Below are positions 23,265 through 64,000 of a stretch of 64,000 bases of DNA, piece after piece. The stretch covers positions 2,418,001-2,482,000 of the forward strand of contig BCIO01000001.1 of NCBI GenBank assembly GCA_001599975.1, in the 5' to 3' direction. A model generated the notes under the pieces. It saw nothing but the letters and a program-made list of their open reading frames with translations. It was not told where the DNA came from and ran no database searches. Positions within the stretch are counted from its first letter, which is position 1; each line of letters opens with the position of its first letter. Origin of the DNA: Cystobasidiopsis lactophilus. Lineage: Eukaryota > Basidiomycota > Agaricostilbomycetes > Agaricostilbales > Chionosphaeraceae. Both the position numbers and the translations under genes were made by a program.

Positions 23265-26200
23265 TTACGGATCAGCTTTGGAGCGTTTTGCCTCGCCACC
23301 TCCTTCACCGTCCTCTGTCCTCGTCCGCTTGAGACCCTGCTGAGAGCCTGCGTTGGATTCGACAGCGCCGACGAGCGCGTGACTTAGCGAAACGCCCCGT
23401 CCTCGAGCGGCCAGGCGCCCCCGCGTTGGCGGCTGTCCTCGCGTTGGCGGCTGCTTATTCGCAGCGTTGGCAGCGGCGCCCTTCAGGCTGAGTCCCGTGG
23501 GTTCCGGTGAAGCGGGCGCGGCCGGCGTGGATGTGGAAGTCTTGCGGGCCTTTGCTGCGCTGCCACCAGCCACTGGGACCGGCGGAAGTTCCGAGGCTTT
23601 GCCCTTGATGGCCAGCGCGGAAGTGGTGGCAATGGCCGCAGGAGATGACTGCTGAGGGATGGAGGGCGATTCGGGAATTGCTCGCACAGCTCTTTTCGCA
23701 GCTTCCAATTCGACTTGCAGCTGTTCCACCTGAGCCGTCGCCTTCGCGTTGTTGGCTCGGAGGGTGTTGTTGGTGTTCTTCAAGTTCTTGTTCTTGAGAT
23801 CGGCTTGATTTTCGGCTGCGGTGAGGCGGGCCTCGAACGCCGCAGCTGCCTCATCGGCTGCCGCCTTGTGCGCCATCTCGAGCTCCGCCTTTTGCTTGGC
23901 CAGAGCATCAGAAAGCTGCTTTTGAACTTCTTCGGCCGAAGGGCCAGGTATTGCCGAAGTCTGCGTTGAGGATGCCACTTCGAGGCTCTTTTGAAGTTCC
24001 GCTTCCCTGACTTTGGCAGCTTCGAGCTCGGCCGTAGTTTTGGCAATCTGCTCTTGCAAAGTCTTGGTTGCCGCCTCTTGCTGTTGCACCGAAGCCTTGA
24101 CGGCTGCCTCCACGGCGGCCTTTTGCGCCTCCTGCGTTTCCGCGAGTGCCTGCGAGTGCTTGGACTGGAGCTCGGCCTGCTGCGCTGCCAGTGCGACGGA
24201 CTTCTCCTCGACAAGCTTCTTGGTCACCTCTTCGACCGCTTGCTCGCGCTGCTGAGTGAAAAGGGCCTGGAGTTCTTCTTGTCGCTTCTTTGTGTCCTCC
24301 TCACTCTCGCCCTCCGACGCTGTTGGGACAGCCATGCTTGCCAGGCGTCGCTCCACTTCAGCCTGGACGGCATCCGGATCTGCTGTCGGCGCATTCGTTT
24401 TGGTGGCGGCTGCCTCGACGTCGGCGGCGAGTGCGCTCGCCTTCTGCTCTGACTCGGCGAGTTGGCTCTTCAACGCGTCGGATGACTGCTGCAGGGTCGC
24501 AATCTGGGCGCGCACTGACGTCTGGGGGGAGAGGTCAAATGAGCACACCGTCGCCCGTACGACACAATTCAAAGCAAACGAACGAGCTCAGCTTCTTTGG
24601 CAGCCACAGCAGCGGCATGAGATTCCTCGGCCGACTTGAGAGCCGAGGCGTGGCCCTCTTGCAGCGCAGCCTTCTCGCGCTCGAAAGCTTCCTTCTCCTG
24701 CTGTTGGCTATCCGAGCTGCTGGAGGCGGAGGCGAGCTTGACTTGAGATTCTTCCAGGTTGGATTTGGTCTCAGCCAGCTCGGCTCTTAAAGCGGTGAGT
24801 TCTTCCCGCTGTCTTTTGGCGATATCTTGGATGTTTTTGAAGCGATCGCTGCTCTTGACGATGGATTCCTTCAGATTGGCGACCTCGACCCGCAGACCTT
24901 GGGCGGCCTCCGCCTAATCACCAAAGCGTCAGAAAAGATTTCCAAGACGGTGAGGACGAAAGAGCGCACTTCTGCTTCTAGCGATGAAATGTGGGTCTGA
25001 AGCTGCTCGATGGCTTCGTCTTTGGCCCTCTCGGCCTCGGCGAGGGCTTGCGCTCGCTCTTGGCTGGCAGTGTCTGCGGCGGCTTTGAGCTGCGCCACTT
25101 CCTCCTTCAAAGCTTGAAGCTCGGCTGGATCGATGCGCTCGTATTTGGCTAAGACTTGCTCGTTGCGTGACTTCCATCGTGCGTTGTCTTCGGTGAGGAG
25201 ACGAATTTGGCCATCGCGGGCCTCAAGCTCGGCTGTCAAGGAGGCCACCTGCTCTTGCAGTGGTGCCAGGCGGTTTTCGAGACTGCGGACCTGTTCGGCC
25301 AGCTGAGACGCTTTGCGGGCATGGTTGCTGGATTCGATGCGTAAGGTGTCGTTAGATTCTCGCAAGATGTGCAGCTCAGTGATCTTGGCCAGCAATTCTT
25401 CGTGCTGGGCGGTCTGAGTGGACAAGGAGGAGTTGGCCTGGCGCTCTTCAGACAGTTGGGCGCGGCTCTCGTCCAGCGACTTCTCCGTATGCTCGAGCTT
25501 GACCTGGAGGCGAGAGCTGGATTGCTTCTCCAGCTGAAGCTGCAGCTCGAGGATCTCTTGCTGCCCGCGGAGGAACTTGATCACTTGATTGAGCTCGTCG
25601 CCGCCAGCAGCATCGGACATGGCCAAAGAATCGGTCTGAGCCTGGATTTGGGTCGCCTGGGCGGTGGTGGCCTCCAGATGCTGGTGAAGCAAAGCGTTTT
25701 GCTCCTTCATCTCGTCGTATCTGAGAAAGGAGGCAAGTCAGACCAAGACCGCCACGCCCAGGCAAGGGATGCAATCACCTCTTCTTGAGATCCTCGCCTT
25801 CCTTATGTAGTGTTGCGCGCTGAGCTTCCCAGCTGGACGTCGACGCCTGCAAGTTGGCGTAAGCGGTGTCGGCCTTGCTGTTGGCTTCGCTGATTCTGGT
25901 GCGCAGGACGATGAGCTCGTCCTTAAGCGTAGCCAGTTGCTTGGCATCTTCTGCGTGCGCCACGAGCTCGCGGTTGTACTTGTCGTCGGCGTCTCGCGCA
26001 AGAGCAACTTGCGAGGCAAACTCGGATCGAGCCGCTTGTTGGTCGGCACGCGCAGCGGCGGCACTCTCACCGAGCGAGGCGAGCTCGATCTCCATCTCCT
26101 TGAGCCGTTGCTCGAACTCGCCGCGGACCTTGGAGACTTCTTCAAGCAGGCCTGAGTTCTCGGACCCGGCGGTCGAAAGGTCGCCAGCCAGGGATTCGAC

Positions 26201-29200
26201 GCGCTCCTTGAGCATGGTGATCTCGGACTGCGTTCGAGTGAGTTTGGAGCACCAGCACTCCCACAAAAGGATGGCTTACATCCTTAGCAGCGATAGAAGC
26301 CTCGGTGCGAGTCTTGTACTCGTCAAAGGTCGAGTTAAGGTTGGCCAAAGCGTCCTCATTGGACTGGCTGATGGCTTGATACTGCTCGACGTGGCTCTTG
26401 GCTTGGCTGCTTTCAACCTGCGCGGCTCGCAATGACCCCCTGTTCTTCAAGTTAGACTCGTTCGCGAAGACGCCAACGCAAAACGGACCTAAGTTCAGCG
26501 AGATCAATTTCGAGCTGCTGCTCGCGGGTGAGGTTGACATCGCCAGAACCTTGAGCTCCAGATCGCCCTTCGTAGACCGCAAGCTTCTCTTCTTTGGCAG
26601 TGACGCTGGCGGAGAGGTCTGAGACACGTTGTTCAAGATGCTGCTGCGATGTACGAGCAACGGAAAGGTTCTCTCGTGTGGTGGCAAGATCCGATGTCTG
26701 AGAGCAGTCATTAGCACCGTCTCAATCCCAAGAAGCGGAGCAGACCAACCAGACGGTCAATCTTGTCCTGCGCGTCCTTGCTCTCGATCTCGCGCTTGAG
26801 CAGCAATTGGCGGTGCGCTTCGGTTTCCTGATTCAGACGAATCTTTGTCTCGTCCCTGAGAGCATGGGAGGTGGGAAATTAGCAAATCCCTCCCCAACGC
26901 CTTGTGGAAAACCTACAGTTGTTGCTCGAGGCGCGTGGCTTGCGCTTCCAACTTCCTGCGAGAGTCAGCACCGACACGCTCGACTTCATGCGACATAGTC
27001 TGAAGATTGCGCATGAGATCGCCAAGAGACGTGCGCTCCGAGCTGAGCGCTTGGTTTTCGGCCGTCAAACGAGCCTCGGTGCTCTATGTCTCCAGTTGTG
27101 AGCTCAACTTAGGGCGGCATCGGACCGAGCAACAGACCTTCCAAGCTTCCCTTTCGGCGCGGAGATTGCGTGTCTCGTTGAGAAGTCGGTCTCTTTCAGA
27201 GCTCACAGACAAGCACTGTTCAGTGACCTGAGAGCACAAGTTCGTGAGATCGTGCATTTAGGGGAAATTTGGGTAAAGAACAACACACTTGGTGGACGGC
27301 CTCATCTTGCCGAGCACTCTGAGCTTGCAAACGAGCGATGCTCTTGGTGTGCTCCGCCGCCTCGCGGGCTTTCCGTCGGTCTTCTTCGGTGAGATATCGC
27401 AGTTTCTCTGTTCACACATTGCGATCCAAATGAGAAGGCTTCGAGCGCATGGACGAAGCCGGCTCACCGTCCAAAACTTCAACCTGAGAGTGACCTCTGG
27501 CCGCAGCGACCTGGTGCTCTCTGCTGTCCCGATAGGCAGTCTCCAGCTCGTTTCGGAGTCGGCGCAAGTCTTCCGTCATCTCCAGCTTGTACGCTTCGAA
27601 GTCGGTGGTGGTGTCTGCCAGCATCTTGCGAGTTTCCGAGTCGTCCTGGACCACGCCATTGGCTTTGGGCGCTGCGGATCCACTGCCATGAGCGGGCGAG
27701 GAGCCGGACATCATGCGACGGAACATGTCGCGCTCGCGGGTGGCCGCTTCGAGGGCCATCTTGCCCGACTGCAGCTCTTCCTTGAGTTGAACAATGACAT
27801 CGTGAGCCTCCCGCACGGCCTCATTCTCGGTGCGCTCGATGCGGGACCTGAGAGCCTCGTCCTGCTGCTCCATTCGTTTGCCCAAGCTGCGAGTGATACG
27901 AAGAAGCTTTTGGTTGTTCGCTTGAAGCGCCGAGATTGACTTGAAGGTGACCAGCTGTTCGTCGATGACAGCGTCGGTGTCGGTGGGTGCATCGTCGATA
28001 GCGGCCAGCTTGGCCATCTCTTCCTCGTAGTCCTCGTCCTCTTGCATGTTGTTGGCCAAAGTGGGGTTCTCGACCAGCGCCAGGTGGCGTACCAACTCGC
28101 GGCATTGGCGGCCCAAATCCCGCAGTTGCTGGCTGAGAATGACGGTCTCCTTCTTGGAGCCTTCGAGGTCGACCTTAGCGGCGTGCGACTTGCGCTCGGC
28201 CAAATCCCGCTGCTCAGAAGTCTCGGCAAGATGGGAGGCAAGCTGGGCGTTCTCGGCCTGGCAGCGCTCGTACTCCATCCGCTGCTCCTTGAGCAGAGGT
28301 GCGCGCTCTTCCAGGTCGGCGAGCACAGAGTTGAGGCAGTCAGTCAGCCGGCTGACTTCAGCGTTGGAGGCAACGAGCTCGGACTGGAGGCGGATGTAGT
28401 CGGTGTAGATTTCGGTGTACGAGCGGCCTTGCTTTTGGATCTTGGAGGCGAGGGAGGCGGCGGGGGAGAGCAGCATGTTGGGGTTGGGCGAGCCGTTCAA
28501 GGTGGAATTGCCGGCAGCGAATCGTGCTGGGGTGCTTTCCAAGCCGCCAAAGGTGCTGCCGGAGAGCATGCTGACGTCGCCATCTTGCGATTGAGGTTGG
28601 AATTGGGCGCGCTGCTCGATCAGCTGGCGCATCTCGGCCAGGCGCACCTCGAGGGTGTCTGACCTCGCCCGCTCCTTCTCCACCGCGCCTTCTAGCTCCT
28701 GCTCCCTGGCCTCGTGCTCTTGCCTGATCTGCTCGAACTGCTCGTTGACTTGGTTGAGGCGAGTGGTGGTGGTGCTGTCCCGCTTTTGCAAGAGGTCGAC
28801 CAGCCGCTTTTGCGCGTCGAGGTCCGCCTTGAAGGTGGCTTCTGACTCGACCAACTGCGACTTGAGGGCTGCGGTTTGTGTTAAGCTATCCATCATGCGC
28901 TGCTCCACTTGAGCATGGGCGGCTCGGAGGGCGGTGAGGGAGGTGGTGGCGGATTCGGCGGTGCGCTGGGTGGTGTCCAGGGTGGACTGCAGGGCGATGA
29001 GTTGGGCCTGCTTTTCAGTCCTGTAGGTCCTAGCAGCGGATTCTTGGGTGGCCAGCTCGGTCTTGTGCCAGTCGCGGTCTTTGACGACGATGGCGAGTTC
29101 GGCTTCGACGGACTGGAGCTTGATGAGCGCCTGGCGCTCTGAATCGGTTCGCTGGGAGACGGTGGCCTCCAGGCGGCGCATCTGGGTCAAGGTGGAGGTG

Positions 29201-29740
29201 TGGGTGCCATCGAGAGTGTCCAGCGACTCTGTGTGCGCATCGTCAATTCTTTCATGCACGAAAAGCTGGCCGGCCAGAATGTGGTGACCCCTCACCTTGC
29301 AGGTTCTGCTTGTCGCTCTGCAGCTTATCCACCGCCTTGAGCAGGTCGGTCTTCTCCCGCTCGAGCTCATCCACTGGGCCCCGGTCGAGGTCCGGATTGG
29401 CGTCGAGCTTGGCCTTGAGGTCGGCGACTTGGGTCTCTAGTGCCGCGTTGGTCTGCTGGAGGCCGGCGATGGTCTCCGCTTGCTGTGTCTCCTTCTCCTG
29501 GGCAGCGGTGAGGGAAGAGCGCAAGGAGGCGAGCTGCGAGTTGAGCGAGTGGAGCGTCTCCTCCTGGGTGAGCTCTGTTTCTGACAGGCGGGTCTCGGCT
29601 TCGGCGAGCTGCCGCTTGAGCTGGGCGAGCTCCTCGGCGGCGCTCTCGAGCGGCGTGCTCTCGTCCACCTCCATGGTGGCGTGCTCGCTCGCCGGGCTGG
29701 TTGGCTTGCGGACAAGCTGTCTTCCGCCCTCAACCCTCAC
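23265..29740 (-). CDS. MLP1: nuclear pore basket protein MLP1/TPR
   Basis: A very long coiled-coil protein (about 1,900-2,000 residues) of the nuclear basket, involved in mRNA export control and chromatin tethering. Nearly the whole length is heptad-rich coiled coil. Diagnostic TPR/Mlp blocks are GRSYTEIYTDYIRLQSELV and IDEQLVTFKSISALQANNQK followed by LLRITRSLGKRME. The C-terminal 300 residues leave the coiled coil for a basic, Pro/Ala/Gly-rich tail with TRGQPPTRGRLAARGRG and end GEAKRSKADP, resembling a nuclear localisation signal. Roughly ten introns. The start could be 29740 or the next in-frame Met (MEVDESTPLE, near 29674); the second is more like the family. Long open frames on the opposite strand are a by-product of Glu/Gln/Ala-rich coding. 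Confidence 0.88.
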
Positions 29741-30110
29741 GCCGGGACGGCCAACCTCTGGATCTGTCTTTCTTCGCCCCGTTTATTAAAGCTTTAATGT
29801 GCTTAAGAGATGATCCATCTGTCTGGCAATCCCGTAGCTTTGCGCATCACGCCCTGCCACGATAATTCGAGCCACTTGCATGTTGTTTGCGTCCCTTCGA
29901 GCTGCAAAGTCAATGATGGGCACTGCGCCGGCCTTATAATAGGTCTATCACTTCTGCCACTCTGAGCTGCACCAAGGGCAAACCACAACCGAGTCAGACT
30001 AGGAAATGCGCTGGCATCGACTCATCGGAAGTCTGCTCCCAAACCACCTTCACCTCCCGCAATCCCTCCTAAGGCGCGCCCAGTCCATCAACGATAGATA
30101 CTTCGACATC
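29741..30110. promoter_or_regulatory. divergent promoter region of MLP1 and the PNPOx-like gene
   Basis: 370 bases with no supportable gene. An ATG at 30006 is in frame with the downstream gene but the family start is at 30111. Confidence 0.45.
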
Positions 30111-31052
30111 ATGGGCGGCTTTTTGGATGAACTAACACCAGAGCTGATCAATTGGGTGCGAGATCAAAAGGTGTTTTGGGTCGCTAGCGCGCCCTTGAAC
30201 CCAAGAGGTCATGTCAACGTCTCGCCGAGAGGGCATGAAAGCCTGTACATCGTCGATAAGAGTATGTTCCATGCACACCACTGTGCTCTGAGCCCCAATG
30301 CTGACCGGGCTGTTCATTAAGATCGCTGCTTCTATGTTGATATCACGGGCAGCGGCAACGAGACCATTTCTCACCTCTACGAAAAGGGGAATGGAAGGAT
30401 GACCATTCTGTTTTGTGGCTTCGAAGGGTGAGCTTGCCCCTTCGGCTACGAAGGCGCTGGGATCGATTCACAACAAATTGCCAACAGGCCTCCAAGAATC
30501 ATTCGCTTCTTCGGCAAAGGGAGAGTCATCGAACGGTACACGCCAGAGTTTGACCAAATCATGCCGCCGGACGACGAGAGGATCCTGCCAGGGACACGAG
30601 CCCTCATTTGGCTGGACATTGAGAAGGTCGGCTATTCCTGCGGCATGAGCGTGCCGTATTTCGACTACGCCGGCGAGCGCAACGACCTGCAAGACTGGGC
30701 GCGAGACCGGATAGCTGCAGACGAGGAAGGTGGCGACAAGGTCAAATACGGTCTGGAAGCTTGTGCGTTTATTTCGTGCTTTGAGATTCCAGCAACTGAT
30801 CGGGTCCGTCTTTTCTTTAGATTGGGCAAAGGTATGCGTGCCCACTCAGCGTGCAAGGATGGTAAGAGCTCAGCATCCTGACCCACGCAGAAAAACTTCG
30901 AAAGCATCGGTGAGTCAACTCGTCTTTTAACTTGATTGGCCAGGGGCGAGCTGATAGGTCTCACAGATGGCCTGCCTGGTCTCAAGCGAGGGATCAGCAA
31001 CGCGGAGCGAGGGATTGGCGGCGTGGTCACGTTCGTCGCCACCTACCTCTAA
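30111..31052 (+). CDS. pyridoxamine 5'-phosphate oxidase-like flavin protein
   Basis: A fungal member of the PNPOx-like split-barrel, FMN-binding fold; the reaction is not known for this fungal subgroup. It opens MGGFLDELTPELINWVRDQK, the usual start of the family, which is why 30111 is preferred over the in-frame Met at 30006. The barrel strands are VFWVASAPLNPRGHVNVSPR, FYVDITGSGNETISHLYE and GRMTILFCGFEG, followed by RIIRFFGKGRVIERYTPEF. The next block LIWLDIEKVGYSCGMSVPYF is diagnostic for this group. The C-terminal exon ends IGGVVTFVATYL, a hydrophobic tail. Introns fall near 30262, 30428, 30761, 30820 and 30911. The stop is 352 bases from the convergent F-box gene. Confidence 0.75.
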
Positions 31053-31403: not shown

Positions 31404-34166
31404 TCAGCTGATGAGAGGTGCCGATGAGAGGCGCCAGGCAACCGCAGATGCGTGGCGGCGGAAGGTCCTGTCCACCATGGCCATGGACTGCACAGTGGCG
31501 ACTTTTGGATCAGTCGCTGGAAGAGGTGTCACAGACGATGAGAAGAGAACGCACTCGAAGGTTTTCAGCCCAAGCCTCTGTGCGCCCATCGCTGTCTGAC
31601 AGCTCAGTGACTCCGGTGGCAATCTTCTCCATGATGGAGTCTGGCAATTTCTTGAAGCGCCGGCGCTTCGGCTCGGGTAAAGAGACACGGATGACATGGA
31701 ATGGGATGGCCGAAAGAGCCGAGCCATTGAAAGCCCGAGTGGAAGTGAAGTAGCCAAAGAAGACTCTGTTAGAGCCCTTCTCAAGCTTGACACGACGAGT
31801 ACAGAGGGATCGGGTCTGGGGGAAGTCACGAATGGCAACCTGGAGCTCGAGTTGAGAAGCCATTCGGCCAAAGGGCCGGAGGGGAGAGGACAAACATGAT
31901 ACGAGTCCGAGTCGTCAGGTGTGGTGCAAAGGCAAAGGGACAGTGGGCAGATGGGCGTGTCGCTGGTGCAGAGATCGGGATTGTCAGCATCAGCGACCGG
32001 TACGGGCATGTTGTCTTCGCCTCCGCTGGCAGTGTTGCCGTCGAAGGTGTCGCCGGCGAACTCAATTTTCTGAGTGACGAAAGTTAACGATATGAACTGT
32101 GCTCAAGGCTAGAAACGCACCACGTCAGACCAAACACCATCCTCGGGTACGCAGACGACCAGAGATGCGCCCTCGAAACGCTTGACCGCCGCCCCCTCAA
32201 AGATGACCGAAACCGCGAACAGGTGATTGGGCGTCTGAACTTTCCCTCCAAACGCGAGGCATGAAGCATGTGTGTAGCCGGAGATCTGGCCCAGGAGGAC
32301 CTCGAAGTGGTAGAGCTTTTTCTGTGGGTGGCAAGGAGGTCAGAAGGAAGGGCCCGCGCGAGAGAGAAAAACGCACGGCGATGGCTGCCCAGCTTTTGCA
32401 AACGCCCGCATAGCGCTTCAGCTCACCGGACCATTGGTAGTTCGGAACGGGAGCCATAGTCGGCAAGCCGCCGGCACCTTGCATCGCAGCGAAGGACACT
32501 TCTTCGTGGGTGTTCCAGGCGGCCAAGAAGATCTTCTCGAGAATAGCCTGTGGCAAGGCCTTGAAGACGGCCCGTTTAGGCTTTGGCGTGCTGACGCGGG
32601 CAGTAAAGTGGATGGGGCGTTCAATTTGGCGGTCCAGCCATACACCCTTCGTAATTTTGAACCAACCCAGATGCGCGGAGTCTTCGGCGGAGAACAAGAA
32701 CTTGCAGTTGAAGATCTCGCGGCTTGACCAAGAGGACTCGGTGCCGCCCAGCTGGTAGCCGGTGATGCCATCGGTGGCGTTCCAGGTGTCGAGCCGGAGG
32801 TGCAATGGGTAGAACACGTCCAGCGGCCCCCCTTCCGTTTCGGGTTTCTTCCCGAGGCCATCTTTGCCGACATACTCGACCTCCTGAGACAAGATCAGTA
32901 TTGGAAGATAAGTGGGCAAGAATGGCGCACAATGTCAGGCGTGGGCAAGTCACTGCCGTAAACAGAGATCATGACCTGCACGCCGGCGAACGCCTTGCCG
33001 GAGTTGCCATCAAAAATGCAAGCGAGCGAGAAGCAATTGCGCGGGGACTCAGTGGCCAGCCCATCCGGCAGCACTGTCGGGTGGTAGTAGTCAAACGTCG
33101 TGCAAGCGTCGATCAATTTGCGAGCGTTGCTCTCTTTTGTCTTGTGCATGCGGCGTGCGACGGCGTGCCAAGTGACGCAGACCTGAGCGAGCAGGTGGAG
33201 GTTCATCTTGGCGTGAATGCGACAGCCAGGCCAGCTGCGATCGGGATGAGGTCAGCTTTGAATGCGGCGGCTTGGGGGGCGTCGACCTACTCGCAAGACC
33301 GGACGCAGCAGTTGGAGAAGATTTGCTCGATGATCTCTGGTGCAATTTGGGGCATCTCGATGCGGGACTGTTAGCCGGATTATGAGCCGAACATTTCGGA
33401 GTCCAGCGAGAAGAGGTAAGACGAACTGGGTCTGGGCTTAACACCCTCGCTGAGACATGGTTGATGAGGCCCTCAGAAATGCCGCCGGACGAGTCGGTGA
33501 AGATGCGGTAGAACGGCTTGGTGCAGTAGAAGTACCCGCAGAGCACCCGGCCGTGGTCGCCGCGGTAAAAAGTACCAGAGTAGAGCAAGCGGGTGCCCAT
33601 GGGCAGGGTGGTCTTCTTGACTTCGATATTGCCAAAGCTGATCATCTCCGACTGGAAGACAATAAAGTCAGAGGGGCGATCGGCGTGCGCAAATCCGGGG
33701 AAAGAACTGATTGACTTACGCCTTCGGTGGAAATGAGCTGCAGGTGGAGCGGCACGCATGGTTTGGGAGCGGCCGGCATCAGGGAGTGTCGGGGCGTCGA
33801 CGGAGAGGCCACAGGATCGGTAGAAGTGGAAGGAAGTGGTGGAAGGTCTGGTTGTCGGGCGTCGAGTGGTGAGTCCGGCAGGGCGACCGTGGCTGGGTCC
33901 AGAGTAGGGTCGTAGCTTTCGTCGATGGGCCGGATGGAAACGTCCTGGCTGTGAGGCTCGTCCGTCATCCACAGGTCGATAGTGACCCCATCCCAAAGAC
34001 GGGCGGCAGACGACTCGAGAACAAGCGAGAGGAAGAACGCGCTGGTCGCTTCGAGCTTGTCGTTGGGGGTCGACGCTGCCTGGACGCTCTGGACTGAGCA
34101 CCAGGAGCCATCGAGGGCAGCGTTGGCGCTGGTGGCAGACCGAAGTGCAGCAGCAGGCGAATTCAT
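31404..34166 (-). CDS. F-box-like protein built from three tandem copies of one module
   Basis: A protein of unknown function made of three divergent repeats. Each unit has (a) a beta segment ending like FFLSLVLESSAARLWDGV, (b) a second beta segment such as GTRLLYSGTFYRGDHGRVL and (c) an F-box-like helix pair. The three (a) segments align: FFLSLVLESSAARLWDGVT, CFSLACIFDGNSGKAFAGVQ and LFAVSVIFEGAAVKRFEGAS. The F-boxes are IAPEIIEQIF with LLAQVCVTWHAVARR, LPQAILEKIF with YAGVCKSWAAIA, and LPDSIMEKIA with SMAMVDRTFRRHASAV. One uninterrupted frame (32895-33206) runs from the end of F-box 1 into unit 2, and a clean intron joins unit 2 to unit 3, so it is one polypeptide. The last intron is 31488-31554. 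F-box proteins normally recruit substrates to SCF ligases; that role here is an inference. Confidence 0.65.
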
Positions 34167-34525: not shown

Positions 34526-36320
34526 CTATCGGACTCCGAAGCCCCTTTCCGTGCGAATCTCTCTGTTGATCTCCTTGAGCTTGTCTAGGTTGTAGGTATT
34601 CACAGGGAAGAAGTGCCCGTCGCCGGAAGGCCGTCCAAGAGGGAGAAACCAGCCCCAGGGGCCGGCGGAGTTGTCGAAGACGGCTGCAAAGTTGGCTCGC
34701 CAGCCAAGGTCGTAGATATCTGTGGTGTATTGGTCAGCGAAACGACATCCAGCGAGAATGTATGCCCCGATGAGACGTCGAAGCAAGAAGAAGGTACTCA
34801 CGACACTTGTCTGCGGCTTTGCGCAGTGCTCTCCGTTCCTCTCTCGACAAGTGGGCGTCGGTCCGCAACAGCTCGGTGTCGGTGGAGCCCACTTTGATCC
34901 GGGTCGTCTCCATGTTCTCGATGGTTGTCAGGTTGTAGCGAATGAGATGGAAGTGATAGCCAGCGAACGAGATGAGCTGTTCCAGGGCACATTGAGATTC
35001 TTGAGCCAGATGGGCAGCCGCCACTGAGCTCACCATGAGAAAGAAGAGGCCGCCCAGCAATAGTCTATTTCCGCGTTGAGCAGCAACTCATGTCAGTATG
35101 AAGAAGGCTTACAGGAGCGACCAGTTGACGGGAGCCACTACAACCGAGAAACGATGAGATCCCGGGACTATATGAGCATTCGCCACCGGACTCACGGTCA
35201 AACCCTGAGACTTGGGAGCCGACGAAGTCAGCCAAAGCAATGCCCCTTCGAATCAGAGCTCTCTTTAGTATCTCCATAAGCGCTGAAAGAAAAGGGCCGC
35301 ACGATATAACGGCCGCATAGATGGAAACGAGAGCGGCGGAAGTGACGAACTGCATAAAGAATCTGTAATTTGACCACCCAACGCATGCTGTCGGCTCTTC
35401 TCAGCACCGCTCATCATCTCAAATCGAAGTTCGTACTAGCTACCACGCCGCAATGGTGATCCTGAGCGCGAAGGTCAACGATTAGGTCCGGTGGGGTCTG
35501 ACGAAGCTCACCATTTTTAAGTGACAAGCTCCACAAGTACTGCAGTGGTGTGATCTGTCGGGTTTAGGAACTTGGCACTGTGAGCAGGCCAATCAGAGGT
35601 CCAGTCGAGGCAAGCCAACAGAGGGCGTGGCGGCCTCCTCACCTTTCGGCAGAAGCGCTGCCCTCCATTCGCCTTCATGGTCAAGCTCTGCTCAGCCGCG
35701 GCTTGCTTGATTAATCTCGGCGTCGTCAAGCCGACATAGGGTGTGGCGGCTTTGAAAGCATGCTCGATGCGAGCCTCAATCTTCTCCACCATGTCCGACG
35801 CATTCGACTCCCGCTCTGAATCCTCGTCTTCTTCATCATCGTAGTCATTATTTTCAGTGAACGGTCGCTGGAGGTCTTCGGCTTGGGTGAGGTCCAGCCG
35901 GGACTGAGTTCCTAAAGAAGGATGGCGGGCGTAAGGGCTGCCCTTGCCCATCAGCGGGACTTCGACCGACGACAAGCCGCCATCTTCAGCTTGGCCAGGC
36001 GAGGGCGATGAAGCGTAGACCCGGCCGGCGCCGCGATGGACGGTGAGGAACAGAGCCCAGATGGAGATGAGCCAGATGAGATTAAATGATGCGATGGTCA
36101 AGAAGCCTTGCAGCCAGAGGTGGCGAGAGGACACGTAGTAGTCGAGGCTGATGCTCCACGTCACGGTCCACCAAGCCCAGCTAAGGTATTAAAGTCAGGG
36201 GAGGGGCAAGAGGCTCAAACGCGGAGAGGGCAGCAGCGAACAAGAGCACGGCAGACACGAAGACCAAGGGGATCTTGCTCGCGCCCAGGGCCACAGCATT
36301 CCAGACTTGCTTTAAGGTCA
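34526..36320 (-). CDS. DHHC-type protein S-palmitoyltransferase
   Basis: A membrane acyltransferase that attaches palmitate to cysteines. Helix 1 is KIPLVFVSAVLLFAAALSAF, joined by an intron to WAWWTVTWSISLDYYVSS; helix 2 is FLTIASFNLIWLISIWALFL. A long acidic cytosolic loop follows (DYDDEEDEDSERESN). The Cys-rich domain reads CQVPKPDRSHHCSTCGACHL then KMDHHC. After DHHC the residues are GVVATCVGWSNYRFF, where almost all relatives have PW-x-NNCVG; the length is conserved but Pro-Trp is replaced. Helices 3 and 4 lie in later exons (FVTSAALVSIYAAVISCG, LLGGLFFLMVSSVAAAHLA). The tail has NLTTIENMETT (TTxE motif) and ends with a GDG-x-FFP block. Closest to the Pfa3-like group by the tail; the exact paralogue is uncertain. 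The start lies 110 bases from that of the divergent URC1 gene. Confidence 0.8.
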
Positions 36321-47119: not shown

Positions 47120-48317
47120 TTAGTAGAGACGCTTGGCCGGGCCCATGGTCTGCGCGCAAGGCTCAGCATACGATTCACCCAATTGGATAGTGGAAGAGAG
47201 AGAAACGCACGCTCTTGAGGTGGAGCGAGCCGACGTTCTGCCAGTTCTTCTTGAGCAGCGAGACCAAGAAGTTGACGGACATCATGGTGTTGGCCACCAG
47301 CTGGTCCTCGGAGAGCTCGATGTGGCCGACGGCGACACCGATGCACAAGACCTTCTTGAGCTGGAACTGTTTTGCGGAAAGGCCATCAGTCAGACTGTGA
47401 ACGTATGTCGAGAGACAGAGGAAGACGGACCTTGATGGTCGACTTGACGTCGGTCACCTTGTTGCCAAGGTCTTCGGCGTGCGAGATGGGAGTGGGGAAC
47501 TTGCCGGCTGTACGTAAAAATGCTCAACGTTAGCCCAAATGGGCTAGGGCAGACGTCGGCACGCACCCTTGGAGAGACCGGGACCCAAGAGACGGGGGAT
47601 CTGCTTGATCAAGGCGTCGGAGGCCAAGAAGGCGTCGTACTTCTTAGCGAGCTTCTTGACCAGCTTCTTGTTCTGTTCGAGGCAAACGGTGGAATAAGCC
47701 CAGCTCAATGGCAGGTCAGGGACGAAGCAACGAACCTTGTTGAGCTTCTTCAAGTCATCAACCGACATGTATTCTGTGCAGGCGTGGATTGAGCATGCAC
47801 CAAGCGATACATGTAAGAGAACGACGACGCACCCAAGTCGATGAGCTTGGCCCTGTCAATGTCGGCGGCATCGGCCAAGATGCAGATGGTCATGCGAGGG
47901 CGGGGCACATGGGGGAGCCTAGTGCGCAACGCTTGAGTCTGCGAAGCACACTGTGCATAAGGGCTAAAGACAACGCACTTGATGGTGCCAGAGAAACGCT
48001 TGTCCCTCTGAGGGTCGTAGTTCTTCAAGCCAATTTGCAACTCAACCTGGATCCCGCGCGCTGCGTCAATATCCCTGCGCTGCCCTGGCTGCTGTGAGTG
48101 GGACATACAGTCTCGATGAAGTTGCGCTTCTTGGTCTTGGAGTCATCGAGCAGCGACTTGATTTCGCCTCGCACGCCTTTTCACCCCAAAAATCAGCATG
48201 AAATCCCGTTCGACTTTGGCCGTTGTGGACTGCACTGACTTGACGCGGAAAGTTTGCTGTTGGGCACCTGTCAGGCACAGCTCTATGGCTACAGGCAAGA
48301 CGAGAAACCAACCTCAT
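47120..48317 (-). CDS. RPL1: 60S ribosomal protein L10a (uL1)
   Basis: The uL1 protein of the L1 stalk of the cytosolic large subunit, moving with tRNA at the E site. Conserved blocks are [51 protein letters not shown] and [20 protein letters not shown]. The end is [20 protein letters not shown] then AKRLY and the stop at 47120. The N-terminus is the uncertain part: the ATG at 48315-48317 is followed at once by a donor (ATGAG then GTTGGT), so the first coding exon is 5 bases. The best join I find reads [18 protein letters not shown], using a second small exon and a 38-base intron. About seven introns in all, spread over the gene. Length after joining is about 217 residues, normal for the family. 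Confidence 0.92.
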
Positions 48318-48400
48318 TTTGGCTGGTGCTTTTTGAGGGCGAGCTCGCTCGGCAAAAATGGGCCAAAATTTCAGGATCACAACTTGTGGGTCTAATGATT

Positions 48401-49789
48401 TCAGATTTTCGAGCTCAAGCCCCAGGACGCCCTGAGCTTGTTCAGGTCGTCGTACATGTCCGTCAAGGTCGTGTCCCAGTCCCGGTACTTGAACCCAAAG
48501 TCGCGCACCAACTTTTGACCGCTTTGCTGGATCAGCTTCTCTTTGGACATGGCCTCTTCCGACGCGCCCGGCTCGCCTTGCACCACCTTGAGCTGAGGAG
48601 CGTGCTTGTCCACCCATTCGGCTTCGCGCGAGGGTTAGGGTAAAGACCGGAACGCGAGAGTCGGGCGAACTCACCGAACGCCTGCACACACCAATTGCCA
48701 GCTGCCGTGATGTAGCGTTGGCCGCCAGCTTTCTCTTCTGTAAGAGCGAGCATATGCCCTTCAGCGACGTCTCGCACGTCGATCTGGTCAAAGTCAGCTT
48801 TGACACTATGGGTGGCAAAAACGACTCACCCAAGCACCCGCCGTCCCTGGGTAGTCCTCCTTCTTCTTTTGGCCGGTCATCACCGAGTAGAAGATGCCGC
48901 AAGATGTGTTGATGTCCTTCTCAGTCGGGATCTCGTGGATGATGGGCCTGAGCATAAGGGTTAGCTTGCAGTTGAATTCGGCGTGCTCAAGACTGACCCA
49001 TAGACCTAAGCAAGCACCGTCAGAGATTATGCACAGAGAGAATGAGGGAAATAGAACATACAAAGACTGGGTTGATCACGGAAACGTCGAAGGAAGTCTT
49101 GTTGTCCTTCACATATGCCCAGGCGGCTTCTTCCGCCATCGTCTTCGAAGCTCTATACCAATCCGCCCAAGGAGCTTCCTTGCCCAACTTCTTGACGTTC
49201 CGCTCCGAGCCCGTGTTCCAATTCGTCTCGTCCACCGAGAGCGGCGCGGCGTCGTCCGGGCCAATGATGGCGGCGACGGAGGAAGTGACGACGACCCGCT
49301 TGACGGACGACTTGCCCGTCTTGGAGATGGACTCCAGGATGCCTCGCGTGCCGTTCACAGCGGGCTCGATCAGGTCGTCCGGCGTGTCGGCCCGGTAGTG
49401 GAACGGGCTGGCGACGTGCAGCACGCCATCAAAGTCGTGCTCGGCCACGACCTGGTCGAAGGCGCCTTTGTTCGAGATGTTCTCGACGAGGGCGTAGCTG
49501 AACGGCTGGCCTTTGAACTGCTTGACCAGGAACTCGCCCTTCTCCTTTGACCGCACGGCTTGAGGACCAATAGCCATCAGCCTTCGCATTCACGCTGGTT
49601 GAGGATCATCACTTACTTCCAACGACTGTGAAACCTTTGTCCAAAGCGTTCTTGACACACCAGGCCGCGATGTACTGTTGCCCGCCACTCCTCTGTCAGT
49701 TTCGACCGTCTTTGCCTCTTTTGACCTTCGCAACCTACGCCGCTGGCCCCTGTTACGAGAATCTTCCCAGGCGCAGAAATAGCTGGCAT
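48401..49789 (-). CDS. NAD(P)-dependent aldehyde/ketone reductase, GRE2/dihydroflavonol-reductase-like
   Basis: An extended short-chain dehydrogenase of the GRE2/DFR group, reducing carbonyls such as methylglyoxal or other aldehydes with NADPH. The dinucleotide motif is split by the first intron and joins as VTGASG-YIAAWCVKNALDKG, matching TGASGYIA-type enzymes. FDGVLHVASPFHYRADTPDD follows, then VKRVVVTSSVAAIIG with the catalytic Ser region. YRASKTMAEEAAW supplies the Tyr and Lys of the YxxxK active site. FDVSVINPVFV and RPIIHEIPTEKDINTS give the substrate side, then VDVRDVAEGHMLAL. The last exon ends ASWGLSSKI. About six introns; one contains an isolated GGGTTAGGGT. Start 49789 (MPAISAPGKILV) fits directly before the nucleotide-binding strand. 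The uL1 gene starts 84 bases downstream. Confidence 0.85.
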
Positions 49790-61192: not shown

Positions 61193-64000
61193 ATGGCACA
61201 GCGCTTGCCTTTGCGGCTGTCCTCTGGCCCAACCAGGCGGTTCTTGTCTTCTCTGGAGAAGGCCCCGGTCGCCTCGACGAGCCGGATCGCCTTGCCACGG
61301 CTGCCCAACAAAAATTTAAAGCCCAGGGCTTCCAGACGGCATTATGCTGCTGCTGCCACCGCTGCGAAGCCTGCGCCCGCTGTTGAACCTGAAGCAGTGC
61401 CAGAACCAGCGTCCAATGAACCTCTGCCGGCGTCGCATGCGTTAACGGAGAAGGATTCGACGAGATTAGCGAGGTTGCGGAACATCGGGATCAGCGCCCA
61501 CATTGATGTAGGGCCCTCCATTGCTCTGAAGTACTTCTGACTCACAGATGAGATACAGAGCGGCAAGACGACGCTAACGGAGAGAGTTTTGTTCTACACC
61601 GGTCGCATCAAGGCTATTCACGAAGTGCGAGGGAGAGATGCGGGTGCGTGGATTCGCTCTCAATGGGATCTGAACAGAGCTCAGCGAATAGACAGTCGGA
61701 GCTAAAATGGACAGCATGGAGTTGGAGCGGGAGAAGGGAATCACCATTCAGAGTGCGGCAACTTTTGCGGATTGGACTGTGCGCCCAGAGGTTGGTGAGT
61801 CCGCTGGCAACTACAGCATCAACATTATTGACACACCAGGTGCGCTTTCTCTTCTAAACGCTCGGCGGCATAGTCAGTGAATGGTGTCCTTTGGGCTCCA
61901 CAGGCCATGTCGACTTTACGATTGAAGTCGAGCGGGCTCTGCGAGTTTTAGATGGCGCCGTGCTCGTCCTATGTGCTGTATCAGGAGTTCAGGTGCGCCC
62001 TCAGGCTTTGTTTGGACTGACCAGCTCGTATAGTAATACTTCGAGCTCACAGAGCCAAACGATCACGGTGGACCGACAAATGCGCCGCTACAATGTCCCC
62101 CGGGTCTCGTTTATTAACAAGATGGACAGGTGAGGTCTTTGCAGTCGGTCCGTTCCACCGTCGACTGAAGAGTCTTGTTCCTTCCAGAGCCGGATCGAAT
62201 CCGTGGCGTGTGATCGACCAGATCCGCAACAAGCTCAAGATGAACGCCGCAGCTGTGCAAATACCTATTGGTCTGGAGTCTGACTTTTCGGGGGTGATCG
62301 ATTTGGTCCGCATGAAGGCGATCCGCAACACCGGCGAGAAGGGGTAAGTACTCCCTCGCTTTTCTGCACATCCCCGCCGGCGCCTTAGCCTCGTGGTAGT
62401 ATCAACGTGGAAGAGACAGACGAGATCCCAGCGGAATTGGTGGAGCAGGCCAAGCAAAAGCAAGGCGAGCTGATCGAGATTGTGGCGGACGTTGATGATG
62501 CGCTGGCCGACCTGTTCATCGAAGAGAAGCCTATTGGACCAGTTGATCTAGCTGCCGCCATCCGAAGAGCCACTGTGGCGAGAAAGTTCAGCCCGGTGTT
62601 CATGGGCTCGGCTTTGGCCAATACTGGCGTTCAATCACTGCTGGACGGCGCTTGCTCCTATCTTCCCAACCCTGCCGAAGTGCCCGCCATTGCCCTAGAT
62701 GTCTCCAAGTCTACGTCAGCTCCCACTCAGGTCTCGCTCTCACCAGCTGGCGCCGCTCCTCTGGTCGGCTTGGCATTCAAGCTCGAGGAGGGCAAATACG
62801 GCCAGCTTACCTACATTCGCGTCTACCAAGGCACCTTGAAGAAGGGCAGTGTTATCACAAACACAAGGACCGGCAAGCGCGTCAAGATCCCACGCTTGGT
62901 TCGCATGCACTCGGACGAAATGGAGGATGTCGACACCCTGGGTGCTGGCGAGATTTGCGCCATGTTCGGCGTCGAATGCTCTTCTGGCGACACCTTCACC
63001 GATGGCGCCGTTCCCTACTCTATGGTGAACCTTTCTCGCGTGCATTCTCAATTTAGCATCGCTGACGGCCTCGCCGCGCAGACTTCGATGTTCGTCCCCG
63101 AGCCAGTCATCTCCCTCTCGGTTCGTCCCAAGGGCCAAGAGACGCCCAACTTTTCTCGCGCTCTCAACCGCTTCCAAAAGGAAGACCCGACCTTCCGAGT
63201 CCATGTGGACGCGGAAAGCCAAGAGACCATCATCTCCGGCATGGGCGAGCTGCACTTGGACATCTACGTCGAGCGCATGAAGCGCGAGTACAACGTGGAG
63301 TGCGTGACGGGCAAGCCGAGGGTTGCCTTCCGCGAGACCATCACCGAACCCGCCAAGTTCCTGTACACCCACAAGAAGCAGACTGGCGGCTCTGGCCAGT
63401 ACGGCAAGGTCCAAGGCCGACTCGAGCCCATGACGGTGGACGAAGACACTGGCAAGGATACGGCGTTTGAGAACGAAGTTGTCGGCGGCGCTATTCCGAC
63501 CTCTTTCATCCCGGCTATCGAAAAGGTTGGCATTCCTTTCCTCCTTGCCACGAGAGAATCCGATTGAACGTATTTTCAGGGTTTCCGAGAGGGTCTCGAC
63601 CGCGGCGCACTGACTGGCCACCCGGTCACTGGCTGTCGCTTCATCCTGGAAGATGGCGCAGCCCACGCTGTCGATTCTTCGGAGCTTTCTTTCCGCCTGG
63701 CTGGTCTGGGTGCCTTTAAAGAAGCTTTCATGAAGGCCAAGCCGGTCGTCATGGAGCCAGTGATGAAGGTGGAGGTGGTGGCTCCGGCCGAGTTTCAAGG
63801 TGCGCAGTCTTTCCCCAGCGAGGCGAGAGCTTATTGGCCTCCTGCTTGCTAACAGGATCCGTCATTGGTGGATTGAACCAGCGTCGAGGCACCATCGTGG
63901 ATACCGAGGTCCGTGACGACGAGTTCACGTTGACGGCGGACGTCAGCTTGAACGATATGTTTGGCTGTGCGTATCTCTTCAACTTTCTTTTTCGAGTCCC
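61193..64000 (+). CDS. MEF1: mitochondrial elongation factor G (MEF1), 3' end missing
   Basis: The mitochondrial translation GTPase that moves tRNA and mRNA through the ribosome. The N-terminus is a long Arg/Ala-rich targeting region. G1 is split by an intron: GISAHID joins [16 protein letters not shown]. Next come [20 protein letters not shown] (switch I/G2), [20 protein letters not shown] (G3) and FINKMDR (G4). The middle exon covers domains II and III ([40 protein letters not shown]). Domain IV has [19 protein letters not shown]. Late exons give [20 protein letters not shown] and [20 protein letters not shown] of domain V, and the frame runs to the window edge. About seven introns. An in-frame Met at 61106 would lengthen the leader; 61193 is preferred because the targeting sequence starts there. 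Confidence 0.92.

Follow-up and report, generated by a model that had tools for sequence, protein, structure and literature searches.

The locus analysed here, part of a 64,000-nucleotide stretch of genomic DNA (the window), is one continuous, spliceable minus-strand gene model whose product comprises three homologous units, the second and third of which have one intron position and phase in common. The explanation that we favour, at a probability of roughly 45%, is that an old tandem duplication within the gene produced a divergent F-box-like adaptor of three modules, in which no more than one or two of the F-boxes would work. Judging from the sequence, this is a real repeat gene, and F-box identity is likely for part of it.

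Structure of the predicted gene

The model obtained by scripted splicing begins with an ATG at 34166 and ends with a TGA stop whose last base is 31404 (Table 1). All eight introns have GT-AG borders, the reading frame is maintained through every splice, and the spliced model contains no in-frame stop before its end. The introns measure 47, 51, 55, 56, 56, 67, 68 and 77 bases and are in phase 0, except for intron 3, which is in phase 2. The donor of intron 2 (GTGTTA) is unusual. The splice choice at the 3' end ranked second (2.5 bits) among the 33 donor/acceptor pairs tried, the top-ranked pair (3.1 bits) giving the same last peptide plus a few residues. A codon score, for which ten long open reading frames (ORFs) from other parts of the window served as the training set (3652 codons, hand-picked from the longest and uncurated), ranked the model frame as the best of the six in eight of the nine exons. 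The exception was exon 9, with -0.035 in the model frame versus 0.077 in one plus-strand frame; the exon 9 value is lowered by the stop codon, which was included in the count.

Table 1 Coordinates of the predicted gene, its repeat units and its F-box-like segments in the window
Feature	Position	Strand	Remarks
Whole gene model	31404..34166	-	Scripted splicing; nine exons; 761 codons plus stop
Exon 1	33720-34166	-	
Exon 2	33445-33651	-	
Exon 3	33291-33367	-	
Exon 4	32931-33234	-	
Exon 5	32377-32883	-	
Exon 6	32121-32321	-	
Exon 7	31896-32069	-	
Exon 8	31555-31839	-	
Exon 9	31404-31487	-	
Intron 3	33235-33290	-	Interrupts F-box-like segment 1
Intron 4	32884..32930	-	Phase 0; end of unit 2 beta-type part 1 (PDI/EVEY)
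Intron 5	32322-32376	-	55 bases; at the unit 2/3 junction
Intron 6	32070..32120	-	Phase 0; end of unit 3 beta-type part 1 (SDV/KIEF)
Intron 8	31488-31554	-	Interrupts putative F-box-like segment 3
Unit 1	33096..34166	-	Residues 1-290; two beta-type parts separated by a Pro/Ser/Asp-rich linker, then the F-box-like helix pair; 13.5 bits with the profile of units 2 and 3; pairwise not significant
Unit 2	32316..33095	-	Residues 291-516; both beta-type parts, then the F-box-like helix pair; similar to unit 3; 21.1 bits with the profile of units 1 and 3
Unit 3	31404..32315	-	Residues 517-761; both beta-type parts, then a degenerate, C-terminal F-box-like helix pair; similar to unit 2; 28.4 bits with the profile of units 1 and 2
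F-box-like segment 1	33150..33367	-	IAPEIIEQIF ... LLAQVCVTWHAVARR; Pfam F-box-like E 0.031, 14.5 bits
F-box-like segment 2	32377..32583	-	FKALPQAILEKIF, about 35 residues, LKRYAGVCKSWAAIA; Pfam F-box-like E 0.0027, 17.9 bits
Putative F-box-like segment 3	31431..31674	-	FKKLPDSIMEKI ... LRSMAMVDRTFRRHASAVAWR; no Pfam match

The junction between units 1 and 2 lies inside exon 4, which is open across it in the model frame, whereas the other two minus-strand frames of this exon contain 5 and 3 stops; the junction between units 2 and 3 is bridged by a GT-AG intron. Since this arrangement leaves no intergenic space between the units of the predicted model, three separate genes at this locus are unlikely. 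More broadly, it is highly improbable that a set of three adjacent genes, an assembly error or a pseudogene in decay has been misread as a single gene: the odd donor of intron 2 and the lack of a clear coding bias in exon 9 would suit such an origin, but the absence of space between the units, the open frame of exon 4 over the first junction, the spliced model free of premature in-frame stops and the superiority of the model frame in eight of nine exons all speak against it. The preliminary description had placed the gene at what is now the predicted ATG-to-TGA model and had joined units 1 and 2 by an unbroken frame and units 2 and 3 by an intron, and these points were confirmed. Its central proposal, a single gene carrying three homologous modules in tandem, agrees with splicing, codon score and unit homology alike.

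Elsewhere in the window, long coiled-coil-looking ORFs on the minus strand at 23265-29436 probably belong to an Mlp/TPR-type nuclear pore basket gene, one of them (27412-29436) matching PF25785, the nucleoporin TPR-like domain, with E 1.2e-22. Both this ORF and the short GT-AG introns of the gene model are consistent with fungal DNA. A plus-strand ORF at 62389-63567, which we assume may be a mitochondrial EF-G gene, matches elongation factor G domains (for example PF14492, E 1e-28). What we take by eye to be a gene resembling ribosomal protein L10a/L1 and split by several introns lies at 47120-49600 on the minus strand and is presumably preceded, also by eye, by a reductase/epimerase-like gene. 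Four pieces of the flanking ORFs (34526-36188, minus strand; 30003-30881, plus strand) had no match in Pfam at E up to 5. Rfam and tRNA scans gave no hits.

Homology of the three units

The alignment of units 2 and 3 runs from the start of each to the first helix, with a score of 120 under BLOSUM62 (shuffle mean 30.7, Z 19.7) and 154 under BLOSUM45 (Z 16.5), values reached by none of 1000 shuffles with either matrix. Pairwise comparisons of unit 1, run with its linker left out, were not significant under either of two matrices: the real score was reached by 71 and 37 of 1000 shuffles against unit 2, and by 189 and 90 against unit 3. The profile of units 2 and 3 nevertheless recognized the complete unit 1, its score being approached neither by the reversed sequence (1.7 bits) nor by the best shuffle (7.6 bits) and reached by none of 1000 shuffles, of which 567 were above the reporting limit and the remainder were counted as lower. 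Without the linker, the score was 9.9 bits versus 8.0. The stretch of unit 1 aligned to this profile is beta-type part 2 only (residues 132-197), so that in unit 1 the first beta-type part and the helix pair are assigned by order and by-eye resemblance. The corresponding leave-one-out profiles for units 2 and 3 gave scores that no shuffle out of 1000 reached. The units are therefore related beyond chance as tandem internal repeats, units 2 and 3 in direct comparison and each unit through a profile built from the remaining two. The earlier statement that all units align with one another thus stands for units 2 and 3 pairwise and for unit 1 by profile, but not for unit 1 pairwise. The Pro/Ser/Asp-rich linker of unit 1 (33774-33905, minus strand, exon 1) has as its positional counterparts a shorter Asp-rich stretch in unit 3 and the shortest in unit 2.

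In the alignment, introns 4 and 6 share position and phase, a coincidence that is expected if the intron predates the duplication. No long direct DNA repeats are left in the 30-36 kb interval, where the longest pair has 27 bases at 70%; by this measure the duplication is old at the DNA level. When the three-unit profile was run against window ORFs of at least 25 residues, nothing outside the locus was significant (best E 0.13). A candidate paralogue at 49.2-49.6 kb (tblastn E 0.013) was ruled out, as it belongs to the reductase-like gene. Exon 5 yielded 6 pattern matches in a viral collection (viral_contigs) and 94 in a prokaryotic one (genome_contigs), none of which was confirmed as a relative.

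F-box-like segments

The whole protein has a single Pfam match, to F-box-like (PF12937; E 2.2e-4), with 21.4 bits against a curated cut-off of 24.3. The same family was the top match of the segments of units 1 and 2, both below that cut-off, followed by F-box (PF00646) at E 0.062 and 0.26, respectively; the segment of unit 3 matched nothing in Pfam. Neither the whole protein nor any segment thus exceeds the curated threshold for a domain of the F-box family. The match of unit 1 spans both halves of the F-box-like profile (positions 6-36 of 47), and that of unit 2 covers the second half only, 18 residues of the model. Of ten controls made by reversing or shuffling the segments of units 1 and 2, none matched an F-box family in Pfam and one matched an unrelated family at E 0.011; given this control, the E value of unit 1 by itself proves little.

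A Leu-Pro helix followed by a VCxxW-type stretch is found in unit 2 alone: the first helix has Ala-Pro in unit 1 versus Leu-Pro in units 2 and 3, and the second stretch reads VDRTF in unit 3 versus VCKSW in unit 2. The first helix of segment 3 falls within the significant alignment of units 2 and 3. Against a profile with units 1 and 2 as its two rows, the last stretch of unit 3 scored 2.5 bits, a value equalled by 108 of 2000 shuffles. Against the Protein Data Bank (PDB), the best match of a profile of all three segments was F-box/LRR protein 17 (E 0.036), reached via the first helix; this is a weak match, within which the single stretches did not pass on their own. When the segment of unit 2 was searched by itself, the PDB yielded no F-box protein, and the sole match (E 1.4, a different kind of protein) was taken as chance.

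On the combined Pfam, control, PDB and shuffle results, units 1 and 2 are graded as probable carriers of F-box-like segments, and that of unit 3 as putative and degenerate. The preliminary description, which saw an F-box-like helix pair in every unit and proposed a profile search of each, is therefore borne out in part: F-box-like was the top match for units 1 and 2, which is suggestive, but every score was below the cut-off and unit 3 had no profile support.

Beta-type regions and structure models

AlphaFold2 models were not usable for either exon modelled, with a mean pLDDT of 35.8 for exon 5 (in unit 2; second row, exon 8) and 38.8 for exon 4 (second row, exon 6). The former shows strands and then helices, the latter helices and then short strands; both agree with the reading given here, but confidence this low means that they are not counted as evidence. 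The beta character of the beta-type parts is accordingly read from the sequence and low-confidence models only. None of the three beta-type regions had a match in Pfam at E up to 5 or in NCBIfam, a prokaryote-centred library, at E up to 1. What the beta-region profile hit in the PDB was weak (E 0.2-0.8) and of unrelated kinds, namely two viral envelope glycoproteins and a deaminase, and was taken as chance. A MATH domain identity was also considered and found no support in any Pfam match. In none of the libraries searched did the beta-type module have a match; should relatives bear it out, it would be a new domain.

Origin and possible function

Under the favoured explanation, the ancestral module would have had an F-box-like helix pair behind a beta-type region of about 150-220 residues (counting the linker), and would have been copied in tandem within a single gene long ago. 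The helix pair of unit 1, of unit 2 or of both might dock on Skp1, while the beta regions might hold a target and so deliver it to an SCF ubiquitin ligase. The helix pair of unit 3 would probably be a non-binding remnant that maintains the fold of the unit 3 module. Several results argue for such an adaptor, namely the F-box-like family as the only Pfam match of the protein (E 2.2e-4) with no F-box among the ten controls, the resemblance of the three-segment profile to F-box/LRR protein 17 (E 0.036), and the unit homology, coding bias, common intron position and GT-AG model. Others weigh against it: the sub-cut-off scores, the unmatched unit 3, the control at E 0.011, the weakness of the PDB match, the Ala-Pro of unit 1 and VDRTF of unit 3, and the want of a relative among the viral and prokaryote collections scanned. 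F-boxes are usually N-terminal, and F-box proteins normally have one F-box per chain. The placement of the helix pair after the beta region, and in unit 3 at the very end of the protein, counts against the adaptor explanation.

The altered key positions in units 1 and 3, the sub-threshold F-box scores and the ease with which shuffles equal the second stretch of unit 3 would also suit a three-module scaffold, in which helix pairs derived from or mimicking F-boxes have lost Skp1 binding and merely connect the beta modules. We regard this as somewhat unlikely, as two units retain enough of the pattern for F-box-like to be their best Pfam match; were it true, the gene would be a case of an F-box turned into a structural element. 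It is more doubtful that the helix pairs are something other than F-boxes and belong to an unclassified alpha/beta domain present in three copies. The short match of the unit 2 segment, its failure to find an F-box protein in the PDB, the control that matched an unrelated family and the beta regions without a significant match would all fit; against this, both halves of the F-box pattern occur in like order in units 1 and 2, and the match of unit 1 extends over both. A fully multivalent adaptor, with an unclassified beta module and an F-box three times per chain and more than one Skp1-Cul1 arm per target or assembly, seems very unlikely. If several serial F-boxes were each accompanied by a putative binding module, the gene would raise the question of whether an SCF ligase can be multivalent within one polypeptide.

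Comparison with known F-box proteins

The segments of units 1 and 2 resemble PF12937 and PF00646 in that the first helix contains Pro and the second stretch is of the form VCxxW...A. They differ in falling below the curated cut-offs, in the 20-35 or so residues (counted by eye) between the two stretches, and in occurring, with the third segment, three times in one protein and after rather than before the putative binding region. F-box/LRR-repeat protein 17 (PDB 8uah, 6w66) is similar in its first F-box helix, to which the three-segment profile aligns, but the other aligned stretch is not a second F-box helix; as its molecule name suggests, it is a protein with a single F-box and LRRs.

More than one F-box in a cellular protein has been described for a Dictyostelium RasGEF (PMC1273635) and for the strawberry Argonaute-like FaAGO21 (PMC9859564). 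Compared by description only, both have two F-boxes rather than three, attached to quite other domains. A degenerate third copy would be ordinary in the light of nematode F-box families, many paralogues of which are described to have lost the domain, for example through a point mutation or an insertion (PMC8665587). In PMC5029927 and PMC9744329, 'three F-box' refers to three proteins, not to one. Among the matches listed in the open-licence literature, mostly titles and the starts of abstracts, there was no fungal protein with three F-boxes. Another parallel is baculovirus Lef-7, for which three putative F-box domains have been reported in one protein; its motifs are hard to detect by standard profiles, and its authors want experimental proof of function for all three (PMC6105029). 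The present protein is like Lef-7 in having three F-box-like motifs that standard profiles catch poorly, and differs from it in that Lef-7 is viral and is described there with a Leu/Cys-rich region, not with beta-type modules; common descent of the two is without evidence here. The preliminary description had known of no family with this layout, a statement that is limited by the three putative F-boxes published for Lef-7 and the two published elsewhere; the beta-type module had no significant match. In view of these proteins, the layout is unusual but paralleled.
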